Source: Clostridia bacterium
Lineage (GTDB): Bacteria > Bacillota > Clostridia > Christensenellales > Aristaeellaceae
NCBI GenBank assembly: GCA_017460395.1
Contig: JAFUBA010000013.1
Coordinates: 1 to 64,000 of the forward strand
Reading direction: 5' to 3'
Length of the DNA stretch: 64,000 bases
In this document: positions 50,485-60,589 of the stretch, one piece after another
How positions within the stretch are numbered: position 1 is the stretch's first letter
Layout: the number at the start of each line of letters is the position of its first letter
Program-made: the position numbers and the translations under genes
The notes under the pieces: model-generated
Database searches by the model: none
What the model saw: only the letters and a program-made list of their open reading frames with translations
What the model was told of the DNA's origin: nothing

Positions 50485-52080
50485 TTATGAAAAATGCAGC
50501 ACATTGATCAGCAGCACCCAGATCAGTCCGTAATACGTGACGACACCTACCAGGTCTGTGAGTGTGGTAATCAGTGGACCTGATGCTACCGCAGGATCAA
50601 TCTTCAGTTTCTTGAAGAACAGAGGCACCACGGTGCCCGTCAGACTTGAAATGGTCATGGCAATCACCATGGCAAAGCCGATACAGGCACTGACGGTATA
50701 ACAGAAGCCCCAGCTCCTTCCCGTCTGAATGAGATGCAGATAAAAACCCACAAACGCAAACGAAATAAGCCCCAGAAGGAGACCGTCACAGAAGCCGGCT
50801 CTGCCTTCCTTAAAGACTAAATGACGCTTCTGCTTGCCTGTCAGGTTCTCATCTGTCAGCACGCGGATCGTGACCGCCAGGGACTGTGTCCCGACGTTTC
50901 CTGCCATATCCAGAATCATGGACTGGAAGGCCACTACAAAGGCCAGCTGCTGCATGACCGGTTCAAACAGGCCGACCACCGAGGACACGACAAGGCCAAG
51001 AAGCATGAGGATAAGCAGCCACGGAGAGCGCTTTTTGATGGACTGCAACAGCGGTTCGTTCAGATCCTCCTCTGCTGTCAGACCACCGAGTTTTGCATAG
51101 TCCTCGCCCATCTCCTCGTCGACGACTTCCACCAGGTCCTGGGATGTAATGACACCCAGCAGCTTCATATCACTGTCCACCACAGGAATGGAGTCTTCGG
51201 AATAGTCTTTCAGCTGTTCGATGCAGTCATCCACGGACTCATGGTCGTAGACATAGGGGTAACTTGTGGTCACCAGTGTATCAAGATCGGTTCCGTCCCG
51301 GGCAATGATCAGGTCCTGCAGGTTGATGGCGCCGTAGTACTTTTCAGTCTCCAGATCTTCCAGGACGTAAATCGTCGACAGGTTATCATTATCCGCAGCC
51401 TGATCCACCAACGATTTCATTGCCTGCTTGACCGTAAGGAAACGCGGGATGGCGATATAGTTTGTCGTCATCTTGCTGCCGATCTCGTCATCTTCGTAGG
51501 ACTGAATCAGCTGGATGTCTTCTCTCGCCTCATCATCATCCATGTGCTGAATGATGGCCCTCTGCTGTGCTTCATCCAGATCTTCCAGCACGTCCACCGC
51601 GTCATCGGCATCCATGTTCTGCACGATGTCGGCCGCAATGTCCGGGGTAAGCTCTGCGATATAGTCACTGGCGTCATCCAGGTAAGCAAAGATCTCCGAG
51701 ACTTCCTCTGCACCCAGCACATGGTACAGGGATATACGTTCTTCCTTCGACAGGTCCTTGAGGGCATCTGCCAGGTCGTTGGCGTGATAATCCGCCAGCC
51801 GCTCCCGGAGCTCCGCCTGGGTGATATCGCTTCGGATGATCTCCGTCAGTTCCTGCTGATAGTCCGGATGCTCAAAGACTTCCTCGTGATCCTCCTCTGT
51901 CTCCATGGGATCCTCGTGTTCATCGTCCGAGATATCCTCTGGTGCGGTGGCAGTGTCTGTTTGGTTCTGGACAGGTTCCTGGATTTTTTCTTCCGCTCCC
52001 GGATGATCCTCCTGGATGTTCTGGCTGATTTCCAGATTCTCTTCCGGCTGCACAGCCGGCTTCATCTCATTGTTTTCCAC
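50485..52080 (-). CDS. mgtE: magnesium transporter MgtE
   Basis: A 531-residue Mg2+ channel. An unusually acidic N-terminal extension (residues 1-70) precedes the superhelical N domain (about 75-200), a CBS pair (about 205-325) and five membrane helices (about 345-531) with the pore segment containing the conserved N-V-G-T-Q-S and SGPL/TTLTDLVG motifs. The N and CBS domains gate the pore in response to Mg2+. It starts with GTG at 52080, 7 bases after GGAGG. A leader of about 265 nt from a near-consensus promoter precedes it. Confidence 0.94.
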   Translation of the reverse strand: MENNEMKPAVQPEENLEISQNIQEDHPGAEEKIQEPVQNQTDTATAPEDISDDEHEDPMETEEDHEEVFEHPDYQQELTEIIRSDITQAELRERLADYHANDLADALKDLSKEERISLYHVLGAEEVSEIFAYLDDASDYIAELTPDIAADIVQNMDADDAVDVLEDLDEAQQRAIIQHMDDDEAREDIQLIQSYEDDEIGSKMTTNYIAIPRFLTVKQAMKSLVDQAADNDNLSTIYVLEDLETEKYYGAINLQDLIIARDGTDLDTLVTTSYPYVYDHESVDDCIEQLKDYSEDSIPVVDSDMKLLGVITSQDLVEVVDEEMGEDYAKLGGLTAEEDLNEPLLQSIKKRSPWLLILMLLGLVVSSVVGLFEPVMQQLAFVVAFQSMILDMAGNVGTQSLAVTIRVLTDENLTGKQKRHLVFKEGRAGFCDGLLLGLISFAFVGFYLHLIQTGRSWGFCYTVSACIGFAMVIAMTISSLTGTVVPLFFKKLKIDPAVASGPLITTLTDLVGVVTYYGLIWVLLINVLHFS

Positions 52081-52346
52081 GTTCCTTCCTCCTTTGTTTG
52101 GCTTGAATTCAGGGAAACCGAATTGCGGGCCATAGTCTGGAGGAGTGGATGTCTTCCCGTAGAAACTCAGCGTTCCATAGTCTCTGTTCTACGCGCAAAG
52201 GCGAAGACAGCTGGGAGGATATCCGTCTCCGCTACACTCATGACCGTCCACGCTGTCTCACCTTACCTTTCTGTCAAAACAGTTCTTCTAGTTGAGATTC
52301 TTCGAATTGAGATTCTTCGGATTGAACGTTACAAAACTGTAACACC
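52081..52346 (-). promoter_or_regulatory. structured mgtE leader, candidate Mg2+ riboswitch
   Basis: The leader RNA reads from about 52346 down to the mgtE start. Segment CAGCGT (52255-52250) can pair with ACGCTG (52173-52168), extended by AGAAA/TTTCT (52272-52268 with 52165-52161), leaving an internal loop with AAGGTGAG. The overlapping GACAGC (52257-52252) can instead pair with GCTGTC (52211-52206); the two pairings exclude each other. TCCTCC (52144-52139) is complementary to GGAGGA of the ribosome site (52092-52087). The AAGGTGAG and CTACG segments recall the M-box, but the strongly conserved M-box core is not matched. Confidence 0.55.
52292..52321. repeat. 15-bp tandem duplication in the mgtE leader
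   Basis: TTGAGATTCTTCGAA (52292-52306) is repeated at 52307-52321 with one change. A short hairpin, GTTACA-AAAC-TGTAAC (52328-52343), lies next to it at the expected 5' end of the transcript. Confidence 0.8.
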
Positions 52347-52352
52347 AGAACA

Positions 52353-52381
52353 ATTATAAAAATACACGATTTAAGTGTCAA
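52353..52381 (-). promoter_or_regulatory. promoter of mgtE
   Basis: Minus-strand consensus TTGACA (52381-52376), a 17-bp spacer and consensus TATAAT (52358-52353), placed directly after the dnaX stop. Confidence 0.88.
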
Positions 52382-52385
52382 TTCT

Positions 52386-54008
52386 TCATTCCTGGACCAC
52401 CACATTTTCTCTGCCGAACGCGTCGATCAGATCGCCCAGCCCAGGATCCTCTTCCTTAGCTTGCTTTGCAGATGGCTGTACTTTTTCCCCAGGCAGTACC
52501 GCCCGGAATGTGCATGGTTTGCCTGCTGCCTCGGACAGCGCCTGATCCATGATCGTGCGGAAGGCTTCTCCCCCAAGGATCCGTATGTAGGACTCATAGG
52601 ATGATTCCCATAGATAACAGTCACCCTCGCAGCCGACAAATTTACCCTGCAGGAGCATGCCGAATTTACCTGCCTCGGTTTTCTTGATGAAATCCATTGC
52701 GGCCTTCCAGACCGCCTGTTCATCGCCGCTGACCACCCGCTGCACGGTGGCAGAGGGCATCTCCTGTGCTCCGCGTGACTCTGCCGCTCTGCTTCTCTGC
52801 CTGACATTTGCCCCGTCCTGCAGCCTTCTCTGAATGTCATCCAGTTTTCTTTCAAGGTCCCGCACTTTTTCGGCAAGATCTTCCTGCCCCTCCTGCGAGG
52901 TGCCTGTCCCCTGCTGGGTGCTCGAACCTGTGCATGCACGTACGGTAGCATTTTCAAGGGCAATACGTGGGGATGTAGCATAGCGCAGGGAAGTTTCCAC
53001 ATCCATGAAAATGTCCATCATGTGCATGAGACTGGATGGAGGAAACTGCTTCGCCTGCTCAATATATTCCTGCGCATCCTCCGCAGTAATCTCCAGAAGG
53101 TCTGCCAGATCCTTTTCACAGTATACAGCCATCTGCAGTGATCTCAGATGCTGAGCAATGCTCCTTGAAAATACGATGGGTTCCCGGCCTGCGCGCATCA
53201 GTTCGTCAATCATCATCATCGTCTCGGAAATGTTCTTACGGCTGAGAGCATCCGAGAAGCGGAAGAGAAAGCCCCGGTCCGCCGTACCGAGCACCTGATG
53301 GACCAGCTCCGCATCCACATTCTGCCCATATCCAAGGCACATATCCAGAATGGAGAGCGCATCGCGCATGCCGCCCTCGGCAGCTCTTGCGATCATCTGA
53401 AGCGCGTCGTCTGTGGCCTGAGCGCCCGCTCCATCCACCGCCTCACGCAGTCTTCCCTGGATGAGCTTTGCAGGGATCCGGCTGAAATCAAAGCGCTGGC
53501 ACCGGCTGAGAATCGTAGCAGGCAGCTTCTGGGGCTCCGTGGTAGCCAGAATGAAGACGGCGTGCGCCGGTGGCTCCTCGAGCGTCTTGAGGAGCGCGTT
53601 GAAAGCTGCCAGGGAGAGCATATGTACTTCGTCGATGATATATACCTTATACCGGTGAAACTGCGGCGGGTACTGAATGGTTTCCCTCAGTTCTCTCACC
53701 TGGTCCACACCGTTGTTGCTGGCAGCGTCAATCTCCTGCACATCCAAAGAATCATTTTCCAGAAGCCTTCTGCAGCTCTCGCATTCGCCGCAGGGATCTC
53801 CATCCAAAGGATGTTCGCAGTTGATTGCCCTGGAGAGAATCTTGGCGGTACTGGTTTTGCCGGTGCCCCTGCTGCCGCAGAAAAGATACGCATGAGCGAT
53901 CCGACCAGATGTTACCTGGTTTTTCAGTGTCTGACGGATGTTTTCCTGCCCCACCATCTGGGAAAACGTCAGCGGCCTCCACTGCCTGTATAGTGCCTGA
54001 TATGCCAT
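52386..54008 (-). CDS. dnaX: DNA polymerase III gamma/tau subunit
   Basis: A 540-residue clamp-loader ATPase. Walker A GSRGTGKT is at 45-52, a zinc knuckle uses Cys64, Cys73, Cys76 and Cys79, Walker B is VYIIDEVHMLS, and the SRC motif is LSRCQRFDF. The C-terminal third (about 370-540) is the tau-like part after a coiled-coil stretch. GGAGG lies 5 bases before the ATG. The usual downstream ybaB-recR pair is absent here; mgtE follows instead. Confidence 0.95.
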   Translation of the reverse strand: MAYQALYRQWRPLTFSQMVGQENIRQTLKNQVTSGRIAHAYLFCGSRGTGKTSTAKILSRAINCEHPLDGDPCGECESCRRLLENDSLDVQEIDAASNNGVDQVRELRETIQYPPQFHRYKVYIIDEVHMLSLAAFNALLKTLEEPPAHAVFILATTEPQKLPATILSRCQRFDFSRIPAKLIQGRLREAVDGAGAQATDDALQMIARAAEGGMRDALSILDMCLGYGQNVDAELVHQVLGTADRGFLFRFSDALSRKNISETMMMIDELMRAGREPIVFSRSIAQHLRSLQMAVYCEKDLADLLEITAEDAQEYIEQAKQFPPSSLMHMMDIFMDVETSLRYATSPRIALENATVRACTGSSTQQGTGTSQEGQEDLAEKVRDLERKLDDIQRRLQDGANVRQRSRAAESRGAQEMPSATVQRVVSGDEQAVWKAAMDFIKKTEAGKFGMLLQGKFVGCEGDCYLWESSYESYIRILGGEAFRTIMDQALSEAAGKPCTFRAVLPGEKVQPSAKQAKEEDPGLGDLIDAFGRENVVVQE

Positions 54009-55579: not shown

Positions 55580-58500
55580 TTAATTCTGCGGATATGGGTC
55601 CTTGGACCAGTTCATGGCATCTCCGCTGTCGTAGCCTGCAGGATATGCCGCACCGGGCAGCATGGCAAGCCCGATATCCGCGTCATAGTTGACATCATCT
55701 GAGATGGCCTGCACGGGCACGGATTCCCCTGTCTCCGTGAGGATCGAGACAATGCCCGGCAGATCTTCCCTGTGAACAGTAGGCACCGTACCCTCCGGCA
55801 GATCCACCTTCACCGTATAGACAGCGGGGTATATATCTTCGAACAGATAATAGCCGTAGGCATCGGTAGAAGTGCTTGTGATCTCTTCCTCCCCGCGCAT
55901 CAGGTGAAGCGTGACGCCTGAGATACCCTTTTCGTCCGTATCCATATAGCCGTTGCCATTGATATCCAGCCACACAAAGTCGCCCAAGGTACCCGGCAGC
56001 ACACCGCCGATGTTCAGATTGATTCTGTCATTGCCCATTGTGACACTCAGAAGTGAGGATTGTCCCTGTCTGCGGTTGCAGTCAGCCATGATGCTGATGA
56101 GCCCGCCATCGACAAGCCGCTCATCGTCCGGCTCCACCACCACAACACCCTCCGGCAGCAGGGTTGCGATCCTGTATCTGCCGGGCAGAAGCCCTGTAAA
56201 GGTGTACATTCCGTCCCCCTGGGTCTTCGCACTCTGCAGCAGCATACCTTCTTCATCCAAAAGGCTGATCTCCGCGCCACTCAGCGCTTCCACCTCACCG
56301 CCGCGGTCGATCCACACAAGGCCGCCCACGGTAGTGTAGCGAATGAGTCCAAGGCTCAGATTGTCCAGATGGTCACCCGTACTCAGATTCAGCACGTCGC
56401 TGACCAGCGTGTTCCTCTCCAGGTGGAAATTGGTATCCCCTTCGGAGGAAATCGTGCTGTCGTCCAGATCATAGGCAAGGCGATACCTGCCGGGGATCAT
56501 CGTATCCAGAGAGAACTGTCCCGACTGGTCGGTGATCAGGTTCGGCATCTGTGTACCCCAGTCAAGGTCGATCACTCGGATGGTCTCATTGCCGGCCCCT
56601 GCCTCGCCCATCTCTCTAGAGCCGTTGCAGTTTTCATCCAGCCATGCATAGCCGGACAGCGAAGCCGGATGAACAGCACCAAGATGCTGGTCTGTGAACT
56701 CCTCGCCCATCTGCACTGTCATGGAGACTGTCTGGGTATTTCTGCACGCCTCAAGGGGCAGGGAAACCGCCTGAACTCTGGAGAGAACATAGTCTTCCGG
56801 CATAACCAAAGTCAGTTCATATTCACCCGGATGAATGTCATTCAGTTCAAAGGCGCCGTTTTCCAGTGTCTCTGTGATATAGCTCACAGATGTATCTGTG
56901 ACAGATCTGAGCGAGATCAGAACACCTGAAAGGAGCGTTGCGCCCGGAGTGTACTGCCCCTCTGCAGTCGGGTCAAGATAAGCATTACCCGATATTCTTC
57001 CCAGGGTCAGCGCACCGCACACGGGCACGCTCACCTCAGCACCCACCTGCAGGCGGAAGGAATCGCTCTGTGCCATTCCATCACCACCGGAGAAGGTATT
57101 GCCGCCGGACACCTCTTTTGCGAAGATTGCGCCCTCCGGCAGGAGAATTTCCACATGATATGTCCCAGGCAGCACGGCATCAAAGCGATAGGTGCTGCTT
57201 TCATGGATGGTCTGGGTATATGCAATGTCGCCGGCATCTGAGACCAGGTTTACCACGGTGCCTTCCAGGCCCCCTTCACCTGCATCCTGCCTGCCATTGT
57301 CGTTCATATCGGCAAACATGACGCCTTCCACGATACCGGGCACCACAAGGCCCACATCCATGCTCTGGAGCACAGATGCGATCCTGACTTCGATGGGTTC
57401 GGTGGTTCCATTACCGTTTCCGCGGCTGATCATCACATTGCCGCTGCCGGGCGTGGTAAATGCATATCCTTCAGGTGCATTCGCCGTCATCACATAGGTT
57501 CCGGGAAGCACACCTTCAAACGTATACTGACCTTTCGCGTTTGTCCTGACTGTGTCCACCACGGTGCCCGAGGATGAGAGAAGCTGCAGCGTGATGTTGC
57601 CCCTGCCCTTCTCCGCGCCGCTCATGGAGCCGGAGAAGTCATCATCGAGATAGACAGTGCCAAAAATGGTGGACGGCACCACAGCGCCTGCATTGACAGT
57701 CACAGATTCTGAGATCGCCACCTCAATATTCTCAGCATTACTGTCCCGGCGGCCATTGACAGCCCTGAAACGGTTACCGTCATCCTTTGTCGATACCTGC
57801 GTAAAGAATGCGGTCCCAGCTGGCAGAGTAGCCTTGACCCGGTAAGTGCCGGGACGGAGGCTGGAGAAGGCATATGTGCCGTCAGATCCTGTCGTAGCAT
57901 TATCCAGCTCAATGTTGGTGCCCTGCCTGTAGACAGACAGTTTCACACCTTCATAAGGCCTTTCACCCTCATCCAGAATGCCATTGGCATTTTCGTCCAG
58001 GAAGGCTGTGCCGCGAATCTCCGATTTGGTGTAGACACCGATATTCTGGTCCTCCACGACCTTCGGATCATTGAGGTCGAGCGTCTTGGCTGTCACAGAC
58101 TTGGTCTCATCGGTAAAAATGGATCTGGCCTTTCCGCCGGCGGTTGCTTTCTTTGTAAAGATAAACCCATCCGGGAGAGTTACGCGGAAACGGTAGGAGC
58201 CGGGACGCAGCTGTGTGAAACTGTACTGTCCGTCATCGTCCGTCAGGATCTGATATGTCAGCCCGTTTCGAATGCCGACACATTCAAGGAGAATTCCTGC
58301 CTGTCCGGGTTCATCATCCTGATGGATGCCATCTCCGTTCACATCCAGCCATACATAGCCAGTCACGCCGCTCATGGGTTCAGCTGCAATACCGAACAGG
58401 GCCGTGGTGCCACTGGAAAGATGCACCACTTCAGATTCCTGCTGCGGCGCGCTCTGCCGGATCATCTGGCTCGATTCAAGCGTACCGGGGTTCTTGCCCC

Positions 58501-60589
58501 TGGGACCGAAACCATAGGACAGAGGAAGCTCGCACCTGACAATATAGTTCCCTTCGGCAAGATCTGTGAAGGATACCATTCCATCAGAACCGGTTCTTCC
58601 AGAGGCAACAATGGTGTCCTCCCCGTTGCCCGTCTGGATCAGATCCACCGCAGCACCGCTGAGGAGTCGCTCATAGGGACCCTTTTCTCCGTTATGGTTT
58701 GCATCGATAAATACCTGCACACTGAGAGCTGCACTTCCGTGTGCCTCACCTGTCTTCAGCGTGCGCAGCGGGATTTCATTCTGTTCTGCATCGGGGAGCA
58801 GCAGCGCTGCTGTGGAATACTCGGTTACGTCAGCAGATACAGATGCCTTTACATCCTCTTCCGGTTGTTCATCCTGTTCATTTGTTCCCTGGATCGACAC
58901 AGAAATGGTGCGATTAGAAGCATCCCCAGCTGGACTTTCTGCCTTGATAAATTCAGGTGCCTGAAGAACTGCTTCTGTATGATCCGTCAGATCAACCGAG
59001 GCAGTCGCCCTGACTGTACCGTCCTTGTCCTCCTCTGCCGTCCAGCCGCTCAGGTCCCAGGAAGCACCGTTTTCGGCCTTTGGCAGCTCAATGGACACCT
59101 GGTACTCACCGGCATACAGCTGACCGGCTGTGAGAACGTTTTCCTTCAGCTCCATCTGTCGGCTGCCCTGTGGTGTGACGATGGAGGCTTTCATATCGCC
59201 GGTAGCATTTTCCACCGACACTGTACGGAATTTCAAAAGGGTAACCTGCTGGGTGAGGTGCCTGTTTTCTGTCTCCGACAGATCTGCATCCCACTCCAGG
59301 GTGCCTGTCATGTAGATCGATACATCATCCAGCTTGTCCATATAGTAGCCAGACGGCACGGTCATCTGGAAAATGTAGGATTCCTGGTTCAGTGTCCACT
59401 CAATCGTGTGACTTTCAGAAAGATTCAGCGTGCCGCTTTCCACCGCCTCTGTTTCCGTGCGAAGCAGCCACTCGATCTGCTCATCGCCAAAATCGCCTGT
59501 AAACACCACGGACAGCCTGGGTTCCGCAACAGGCACCGGAGTGGCGGTGGGGCTCTGTGTGGGTGGCACAGTCACCACGGGCGTCGGCGTCGGCGTAGAT
59601 GTTGGTTCAGCCGTAGGTGCCTCGGTCGGCACGGAAGTGGGTGCAACAGTCGGCTCCTGTGTGGGCGTAGATGTTGGTACCTCCGTGGGAACGGGGGTTG
59701 GTGCTTCGGTTGGAGCCGCAGTGGGGGTCTGTGTGGGCTCAGCTGTGGGTGCTTCCGTCGGGACCTCGGTAGGCGTGGCCGTCGGGACCTCTGTCGGCAC
59801 AGGCGTTGGTGCTTCGGTCGGCACGGCCGTTGGAGCTGGCACCACGACCGTGGGGGCAGGGGTCAGCGTCTCCTGGACAACGTCCTCCGCCGCGATTTCT
59901 TCATCCTTTATCTCCGGATAAGCATCTCTCAGGTCCACCAGTGCGATCTCGCTGCCGTTGCCCCTGTATGGCACAATTTCCACGTTGGCAGTCACGTCAC
60001 TGTTGTCCAGATCGCGGATCTGCCAAATGCCGGAGACAATGGGCTCCTCCAGTGAGAAAACGCCATCCTCGCCCGTTTCAATTTCGAAGCGTTCCAGGAC
60101 GATTTCCTTCGTTTCTTCCTCATCCTCGCTCAGCGTCGGAAAAAACTCTTCCTCCTCCTGGTCCGTTACGCGCAGCACTTCATAGCGATGCCTGCCGCGG
60201 GTGTACAGATCGAAAAGGCCTGCATCCGCATAGGCTACAATGTGGACAATATTATCAATATTTTCTGTGACGCCAAGGGTATAGCCATTGGCATCCATGG
60301 TATAGCCCTCCGTCACCGTGTCGAGATCCGGCACAAGTGTGACATCTGACCCGTCCTTCAGAGCAATGTCTGTGCTTCCGAAGGGATTGACTTTCATGGT
60401 ACCAATGAGGGTATCATGCTGATAGACAGAGAAATCACAGGAAAGCATCTCGGGTTCCCATTCGCCGTCAGCACGAAGGACCATCCCATAGACATATACC
60501 TGCAGCGACGTTTCTTCTGCCGCTGCCCATGTCCACATACCTGTCAGCAATACCAAACTGATAAGCCATGCCAATCCTCTCCTGGCCAT
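55580..60589 (-). CDS. giant secreted SdrD/Cna-B repeat protein
   Basis: A 1669-residue exported protein. The signal peptide (about 1-24) ends WAAA before EETS. About 25-235 holds a beta-type domain, 236-353 a Pro/Thr stalk of PTEAPT/PTEVPT units, 354-620 two beta-rich domains, and about 630-1640 nine SdrD_B-like domains, each opening with a pattern such as VWLDVNGDG or FLDENANG that suggests calcium-binding loops. Each domain is followed by a YxFxxLxPGxYxV strand. No LPxTG motif, membrane helix, SLH domain or lysine/choline-binding repeat is seen at the C-terminus, so attachment is unexplained. GGAGGG lies 10 bases before the ATG. Confidence 0.85.
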   Translation of the reverse strand: MARRGLAWLISLVLLTGMWTWAAAEETSLQVYVYGMVLRADGEWEPEMLSCDFSVYQHDTLIGTMKVNPFGSTDIALKDGSDVTLVPDLDTVTEGYTMDANGYTLGVTENIDNIVHIVAYADAGLFDLYTRGRHRYEVLRVTDQEEEEFFPTLSEDEEETKEIVLERFEIETGEDGVFSLEEPIVSGIWQIRDLDNSDVTANVEIVPYRGNGSEIALVDLRDAYPEIKDEEIAAEDVVQETLTPAPTVVVPAPTAVPTEAPTPVPTEVPTATPTEVPTEAPTAEPTQTPTAAPTEAPTPVPTEVPTSTPTQEPTVAPTSVPTEAPTAEPTSTPTPTPVVTVPPTQSPTATPVPVAEPRLSVVFTGDFGDEQIEWLLRTETEAVESGTLNLSESHTIEWTLNQESYIFQMTVPSGYYMDKLDDVSIYMTGTLEWDADLSETENRHLTQQVTLLKFRTVSVENATGDMKASIVTPQGSRQMELKENVLTAGQLYAGEYQVSIELPKAENGASWDLSGWTAEEDKDGTVRATASVDLTDHTEAVLQAPEFIKAESPAGDASNRTISVSIQGTNEQDEQPEEDVKASVSADVTEYSTAALLLPDAEQNEIPLRTLKTGEAHGSAALSVQVFIDANHNGEKGPYERLLSGAAVDLIQTGNGEDTIVASGRTGSDGMVSFTDLAEGNYIVRCELPLSYGFGPRGKNPGTLESSQMIRQSAPQQESEVVHLSSGTTALFGIAAEPMSGVTGYVWLDVNGDGIHQDDEPGQAGILLECVGIRNGLTYQILTDDDGQYSFTQLRPGSYRFRVTLPDGFIFTKKATAGGKARSIFTDETKSVTAKTLDLNDPKVVEDQNIGVYTKSEIRGTAFLDENANGILDEGERPYEGVKLSVYRQGTNIELDNATTGSDGTYAFSSLRPGTYRVKATLPAGTAFFTQVSTKDDGNRFRAVNGRRDSNAENIEVAISESVTVNAGAVVPSTIFGTVYLDDDFSGSMSGAEKGRGNITLQLLSSSGTVVDTVRTNAKGQYTFEGVLPGTYVMTANAPEGYAFTTPGSGNVMISRGNGNGTTEPIEVRIASVLQSMDVGLVVPGIVEGVMFADMNDNGRQDAGEGGLEGTVVNLVSDAGDIAYTQTIHESSTYRFDAVLPGTYHVEILLPEGAIFAKEVSGGNTFSGGDGMAQSDSFRLQVGAEVSVPVCGALTLGRISGNAYLDPTAEGQYTPGATLLSGVLISLRSVTDTSVSYITETLENGAFELNDIHPGEYELTLVMPEDYVLSRVQAVSLPLEACRNTQTVSMTVQMGEEFTDQHLGAVHPASLSGYAWLDENCNGSREMGEAGAGNETIRVIDLDWGTQMPNLITDQSGQFSLDTMIPGRYRLAYDLDDSTISSEGDTNFHLERNTLVSDVLNLSTGDHLDNLSLGLIRYTTVGGLVWIDRGGEVEALSGAEISLLDEEGMLLQSAKTQGDGMYTFTGLLPGRYRIATLLPEGVVVVEPDDERLVDGGLISIMADCNRRQGQSSLLSVTMGNDRINLNIGGVLPGTLGDFVWLDINGNGYMDTDEKGISGVTLHLMRGEEEITSTSTDAYGYYLFEDIYPAVYTVKVDLPEGTVPTVHREDLPGIVSILTETGESVPVQAISDDVNYDADIGLAMLPGAAYPAGYDSGDAMNWSKDPYPQN
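59530..59880. repeat. Pro/Thr-rich stalk-coding repeat region
   Basis: Degenerate repeats of a 12- to 18-base theme coding PT-x-x-PT units such as PTEAPT, PVPTEVPT and PTATPT across about 350 bp. This is the likeliest place for length variation between strains. Confidence 0.8.

Follow-up and report, generated by a model that had tools for sequence, protein, structure and literature searches.

What controls the Mg2+ transporter gene mgtE in a Clostridia bacterium whose mgtE leader has the look of a switch? The locus lies in a 64,000-nt stretch of DNA (GCA_017460395.1, contig JAFUBA010000013.1, positions 1-64,000), here called the window. A first-pass annotation described a consensus promoter and a leader of about 265 nt, with switch-like alternative pairings and an anti-Shine-Dalgarno (anti-SD) segment. 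It doubted that this was an ordinary M-box, and proposed a divergent M-box or another Mg2+-responsive switch. Both the regulatory leader and the doubt about an ordinary M-box are borne out, and every sequence string that it quoted is present at its position. Our computational analysis shows a conserved upstream open reading frame (uORF) in the leader, a ribosome-binding site (RBS) of its own, a helix (P1), terminators, an exclusive association with mgtE, and an absence of the M-box from those sampled genomes that carry the uORF. From these sequence comparisons, the uORF very probably controls mgtE.

The mgtE locus and its leader uORF

The mgtE gene (50485..52080, minus strand) starts with GTG. 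Its product carries the Pfam domains MgtE_N (PF03448), CBS (PF00571), and MgtE (PF01769), and matches the MgtE structure 2yvx in the PDB (E=1.8e-50). Sequence and folding place its SD, GGAGGA, at 52087..52092 (minus strand). The promoter read from the sequence (52353..52381, minus strand) agrees with the one annotated previously: a -35 box TTGACA (52381-52376) and a -10 box TATAAT (52358-52353) are separated by a 17-nt spacer, and the site adjoins the end of dnaX (52386-54008). Many of the relatives whose leaders we read also have TTGACA-N17-TATAAT-like sites ahead of the uORF.

The leader uORF (52189..52251, minus strand) starts with GTG at 52251 and runs for 20 codons to a TAG ending at 52189. 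It encodes the peptide MDGHECSGDGYPPSCLRLCA, with early acidic residues at D2, E5, and D9. Its SD is AAGGTGAG (52257..52264, minus strand), and nearly all of the 72 homologous uORFs have an AGGTGA-type SD shortly before their start codon. This same segment had been taken for an M-box-like element, as had a TCTACG segment, which has no counterpart in the relatives. The short ORF that the SD serves had gone unnoticed, and its recognition shifts the mechanism from a ligand-binding RNA to the translation of a leader peptide. That the conserved core of the leader behaves as a translated uORF is well supported by its pattern of sequence variation.

Other features of the window were observed in passing. 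Between the promoter and the uORF, at 52283-52312, there are two copies of a 15-nt direct repeat (TCTCAATTCGAAGAA type, minus strand); a third, partial copy was suspected by eye, and the repeats are not evident in relatives. A 512-codon open frame (50821-52359, plus strand) lies antisense to mgtE and runs through the leader; codon use in mgtE probably accounts for it. The region 55580-60589 codes for a large protein of secreted type, likely located at the cell surface, in which SD-repeat B-like (prealbumin-like) domains recur many times and a Thr/Pro-rich linker is present.

The uORF is found ahead of one MgtE clade in Clostridia

When 60 related genomes were searched at the DNA level, a single conserved patch emerged, located upstream of mgtE in five relatives from the same genus. 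We built a covariance model from six leaders of the genus (the window and its relatives) and searched it across the family, finding 28 convincing loci in several genera, every one of them directly upstream of mgtE. In the loci that were read, the patch is an RBS followed by a short reading frame: AGGTGAG, 5-8 nt, and then GTG GAC GGT CAT/TAT/CAG GAC/GAG AGT.

Pattern scans extended this distribution. In a second family (f68), the pattern occurred in 31 of 115 genomes; every one of the 30 loci read contains the uORF (for example, MDAGDSCDKRGKRGRNILCSL...), and mgtE follows in 29 of them. When one genome per GTDB species was scanned, all 25 stretches recovered had the uORF, followed by mgtE in each case where the stored DNA is long enough. 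They include Butyribacter intestini (leader L071), with the uORF MDSNDSFGRSSNNSVLYREQVAWLLHEKFSHVYK, and Eubacterium sp. MSJ-13, whose stretch ends before any downstream gene. We distinguish 72 uORFs of this kind, all ahead of one MgtE clade in Clostridia where the contig reaches the downstream gene. The uORF family, MDxx(D/E)SxG, is present in several Clostridia families, including many gut Clostridia. Most of the genomes surveyed are uncultured assemblies. The peptide consensus is M-D-x-x-(D/E)-S-x-G-(D/R); the length of homologues ranges from 19 to 54 residues, and the C-terminal part is not conserved.

Because a pattern scan of a class-wide sample yielded only one or two real matches, and because pattern scans presuppose the uORF, we also fetched mgtE genes by their protein alone. 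Within the window's own family, this gave 44 genes of the same clade, 37 of them with the uORF. The other seven comprise five extra copies, one gene that is second in its operon, and one cut by a contig end. In the class sample, a further 16 of 19 genes had the uORF. Setting aside the contig-end gene and the second-in-operon gene, the uORF precedes 53 of the 61 mgtE genes of the clade that could be assessed, leaving eight without it. The protein-fetched set also contains divergent forms, such as MDSCDSHGRS, MSNSDSNGRS, MPSGDSYGS, and MDGCDSRSR.

Ordinary MgtE proteins from the same class are 25-35% identical and form a separate clade. A phylum-wide sample of 279 genomes contained no further members of the uORF-bearing clade outside Clostridia, and a plasmid collection contained no match to the leader.

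In one genus (g72), extra same-clade mgtE copies (L149, L156, L157, L158, and L160) have no uORF, and the genome's other copy usually has one; this suggests that the extra copies are differently controlled paralogues. In G010:C113 (L048 and L155), two same-clade mgtE genes follow one another after just one uORF leader.

Codon-level patterns in the uORF

Variation among the 72 uORFs follows the reading frame. ATG and GTG replace each other as the start codon while the SD stays constant, GAN (Asp or Glu) occupies codon 5, and codon 8 is mostly GGN; these are protein-type patterns. Among single-base differences in codons 2-9, the synonymous share within the window's family is 0.45 in frame 0, the other two frames having 0.23 and 0.29. 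Over all lineages, it is 0.44 in frame 0 and 0.38 and 0.23 in the others. An indel in the conserved part of one homologue (L055) preserves the frame.

Early acidic residues are a general property of the family. All 72 uORFs have one within codons 2-5, usually Asp2 together with Asp or Glu at codon 5, and an acid stands at codon 2, codon 5, or both in all except variants that are shifted or carry a 3-nt deletion. Codon 5 is acidic in 39 of 45 distinct uORFs that were fetched without requiring this acid. Homologues lacking the codon-5 acid include L148, L152, and L154, and those lacking the codon-2 acid are L131, L134, L135, and L142. The acids fall mostly at codons 2, 5, and 9 and are spaced by two or more, rather than forming acidic repeats that are adjacent or one apart (EPDP, DxE).

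Two further codons stand out at the nucleotide level: codon 6 is a near-invariant AGT (Ser), and codon 9 is frequently CGA (Arg). For this constancy, neither a simple acidic-residue model nor the peptide sequence alone is sufficient.

Helix P1 buries the start of the uORF

The SD and start of the uORF are buried by P1, in which they pair with a later stretch lying mostly inside the uORF itself. In the window, the 5' arm AAGGTGAGACAGC (52252..52264, minus strand) hides the uORF SD, and the 3' arm GCTGTCTTCGCCTT (52198..52211, minus strand), placed by duplex and covariation analyses, lies within the uORF. The duplex has a predicted energy of -19.9 kcal/mol; like the E-values given here, folding energies are in silico quantities. 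The annotated pairing of GACAGC with GCTGTC (52257-52252 with 52211-52206) is part of this 13-bp helix, whose equivalents in relatives are conserved and covary.

Statistical evidence for P1 comes from sets of related sequences, so that the counts are not independent events. Compared with shuffled sequence, P1 has a mean z of -2.1 over the 72 leaders, with p<0.05 in 39 of them. Across 44 divergent representatives, its mean duplex energy is -16.8 kcal/mol, rising to -12.3 kcal/mol once leaders are swapped (0 of 5000 permutations). At least nine of ten ungapped pairs form in 22 of these 44; after swapping, the share is 13.6% (0 of 10000 permutations). Most positions show three or more standard pair types. 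In the alignment of the six genus leaders, covariation in P1 was not significant because these sequences are too similar to one another.

The competing pairing put forward for the same region, CAGCGT with ACGCTG extended by AGAAA/TTTCT, has its strings in the window and a predicted energy of -11.9 kcal/mol. It is weaker than P1, and ACGCTG...TTTCT is absent from the relatives' leaders that were read; it may be due to chance.

Elements between the uORF and mgtE

In 43 of the 72 leaders, versus 8.5% of shuffles, a hairpin resembling an intrinsic terminator lies between the uORF and mgtE, a count again taken over related sequences. The window's leader has no intrinsic terminator before mgtE. It has the anti-SD segment TCCTCC (52139..52144, minus strand), whose complementarity to the mgtE ribosome site had been noted correctly: it pairs with GGAGGA (52092-52087) at -11.4 kcal/mol, and in the free leader the unpaired probability of the mgtE SD is 0.02. 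Genus relatives that have no terminator carry a pyrimidine-rich segment at the same position, followed by TGACC or ATGAC.

Between the arms of P1, the uORF contains GGTCAT (codons 3-4; 52240..52245, minus strand), which we propose as a switch strand. It is complementary to ATGGCC (52128..52133, minus strand), the putative partner, which adjoins the anti-SD and contributes to the inner stem of the hairpin at the mgtE RBS. Genus relatives have GGTCA(T) in the uORF with a complementary TGACC or ATGAC downstream, and the pairing is plausible in the window. Forcing it in a nested model raised the unpaired probability of the mgtE SD only from 0.02 to 0.26, and in simulations of ribosome occupancy in the window, occupancy alone did not open the mgtE SD.

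We also considered a general rule by which the uORF would pair with the terminator 5' arm. Overall the tendency is weak, with a mean z of -0.7 and values below -1.65 in 9 of 43. In single groups a pairing of this type looks convincing: L071, at -18.0 kcal/mol (p 0.015), and L038-L046, where GACAG pairs with CCTGCCTGTC.

A separate complementarity was observed in the second family (L095-L124). Here the D-K-R codons of the uORF, ACAAACG, match CGTTTGT, which lies immediately after the terminator and ahead of the mgtE SD. Covariation of the flanking base is seen in L096 (A/T) and in L097 and L106 (G/C), but not in L102-L104.

The M-box and the uORF leader appear to be alternative devices

The search suggested by the first-pass annotation, using RF00380 and other Rfam families, found no ordinary M-box in the leader: positions 51900-52600 gave no match at E<=10, RF00380 included. 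The whole 64-kb window has nothing at gathering thresholds, and five relatives gave chance matches only. We then compared 50 genomes. RF00380 matched none of 35 chosen around uORF-type mgtE genes, the window genome and its genus included, and it matched 4 of 15 comparison genomes at 101-153 bits, each time just upstream of an ordinary mgtE. These strong matches show that the search method works. The M-box and the uORF leader appear to be alternative devices. A divergent M-box or Mg2+ aptamer is therefore unsupported as the identity of the leader, whose core reads as a uORF.

A proposed mechanism

We consider it probable that the leader is an attenuator operated by a leader peptide, similar to mgtL and mgtQ, which may respond to Mg2+ because ribosomes drop off early, at acidic codons. 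A ribosome would initiate at the GTG at 52251 and synthesize a peptide some 20 residues long that has acidic residues near its start. Since the uORF SD and start are predicted to be hidden in P1, whose other arm is the later part of the uORF, the RNA would have two states. With a ribosome elongating, P1 would be open and the switch strand (codons 3-8) covered, allowing the downstream OFF element to form: a terminator in many relatives, and the TCCTCC/SD hairpin in the window. With no elongating ribosome, P1 would form and expose GGTCAT, which could then pair with ATGGCC or with the 5' arm of a terminator, leaving mgtE on; we infer this switch from complementarity. Low Mg2+ would destabilize ribosomes early, at the acidic codons, so that mgtE is on when Mg2+ is short. 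At high Mg2+, full translation would open P1, and the terminator or the SD hairpin would form.

We infer the direction of control, the Mg2+ signal, and the drop-off sensor from analogy with enterobacterial systems. For Mg2+-dependent ribosome drop-off itself, the case is close to balanced, falling slightly short of an even chance.

Alternative explanations differ in how they account for the same features. The signal could be different from Mg2+, for instance the supply of charged tRNA, if the uORF is a classical attenuator based on stalling or rare codons, or an arrest peptide that reads another signal; pausing would then occur at Ser AGT and Arg CGA. AGT at codon 6 in nearly all uORFs and CGA at codon 9 in many lineages would fit codon-specific pausing, and terminators and an RBS-hiding helix suit any attenuator. 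However, the uORFs have no run of a single amino acid as amino acid attenuators do, their C-terminal part is unconserved, unlike that of typical arrest peptides, and the gene under control invariably encodes a Mg2+ transporter. We therefore regard this as unlikely, although it is the most credible of the alternatives. Less likely still is that the short ORF encodes a functional small protein acting on MgtE, for which we see very little chance. Its N-terminus is conserved over several families, but products of 19-54 residues with unconserved C-termini and no evident membrane segment give little to recommend it, and an SD hidden by a covarying helix, with terminators after the uORF, is typical of control in cis.

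Other explanations place the sensor in the RNA. If the leader were a direct Mg2+-binding RNA, that is, a new riboswitch class with an incidental or accessory ORF, this would agree with the strong nucleotide conservation of GTGGACGG...GACAGT, the conserved P1, and the constant position upstream of mgtE. Yet variation tracks the reading frame, start codons are exchanged while the SD is kept, the RNA beyond the first codons and P1 varies between lineages, and Rfam holds no match, which makes such a class improbable. As for a divergent M-box, what had spoken for it was the mgtE gene itself, together with an AGGTGAG close to the 5' end. We consider it ruled out for all practical purposes: this AGGTGAG is the SD of the uORF, and RF00380 finds nothing here at E<=10, while in related genomes genuine M-boxes that precede an ordinary mgtE score high.

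Comparison with known systems

The probable leader-peptide attenuator has its closest parallels in enterobacteria. In E. coli, low Mg2+ causes ribosomes to drop off at the early acidic residues (EPDP) of MgtL, and mgtA is transcribed (PMC11282234). Like MgtL, which precedes mgtA in Escherichia coli and Salmonella, the mgtE uORF is a short ORF with N-terminal acids ahead of a Mg2+ importer, whose translation would select among mRNA folds. Unlike MgtL, with its Rho-dependent terminator, the mgtE leader has intrinsic terminators or SD hiding. It also lacks evident sequence similarity to MgtL and its EPDP motif, belongs to Clostridia and to another transporter family, and has a weaker spacing of acids than EPDP. 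In Salmonella, Asp2 and Glu5 of mgtQ, a uORF of mgtCBRU, are needed for MgtB production, and the uORF and the target RBS lie in mutually exclusive stem-loops (PMC8092293). The mgtE uORF shares the mgtQ-like spacing, with acids at positions 2 and 5, and the place ahead of a Mg2+ transporter gene. It differs in having 19-54 codons in a 5' leader, whereas mgtQ has eight, is intergenic, and acts on mgtB translation. Phylum, gene family, and motif set the mgtE uORF apart from both, and we do not claim homology.

Among regulatory RNAs, the M-box (ykoK, RF00380) also controls mgtE in Bacillota, but it has no sequence or structural match to this leader and was not found in sampled genomes that carry it. 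The SRC-65-1 motif is likewise a candidate regulatory RNA ahead of mgtE; however, it is reported only from Thioalkalivibrio, with no uORF described, and is not the Clostridia element (PMC11109978). The Corynebacterium ilvB attenuator, in which a uORF and a terminator/antiterminator were first taken for a riboswitch, is similar in this respect but uses branched-chain amino acid codons and has another gene and signal (PMC11109978, PMC10272879). In the open-licence papers searched, we found no earlier description of the mgtE uORF leader, and Mg2+-related leader peptides only in enterobacteria. What appears to be new is the peptide family, the regulated gene family, and the lineage; leader-peptide attenuation itself is already known.

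More tentatively, and with slightly less confidence than in ribosome drop-off, we suggest that these uORFs may constitute an undescribed, widespread Clostridia family of Mg2+-sensing leader peptides (core MDxxDSxGR). This family would replace the M-box for one MgtE clade, with the nascent peptide or its codons (Asp5, Ser-AGT6, and Arg-CGA9) making the ribosome a Mg2+ sensor, independently of MgtL and mgtQ. If true, this would be a further case of an apparent riboswitch proving to be a uORF, and it would account for the control of one MgtE clade where the M-box is not found. It would also represent an independent Mg2+-sensing leader peptide in Gram-positive gut bacteria, attached to another transporter family and having an mgtQ-like layout of early acids. 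Comparison of unrelated systems could then test whether the ribosome serves as a Mg2+ sensor.
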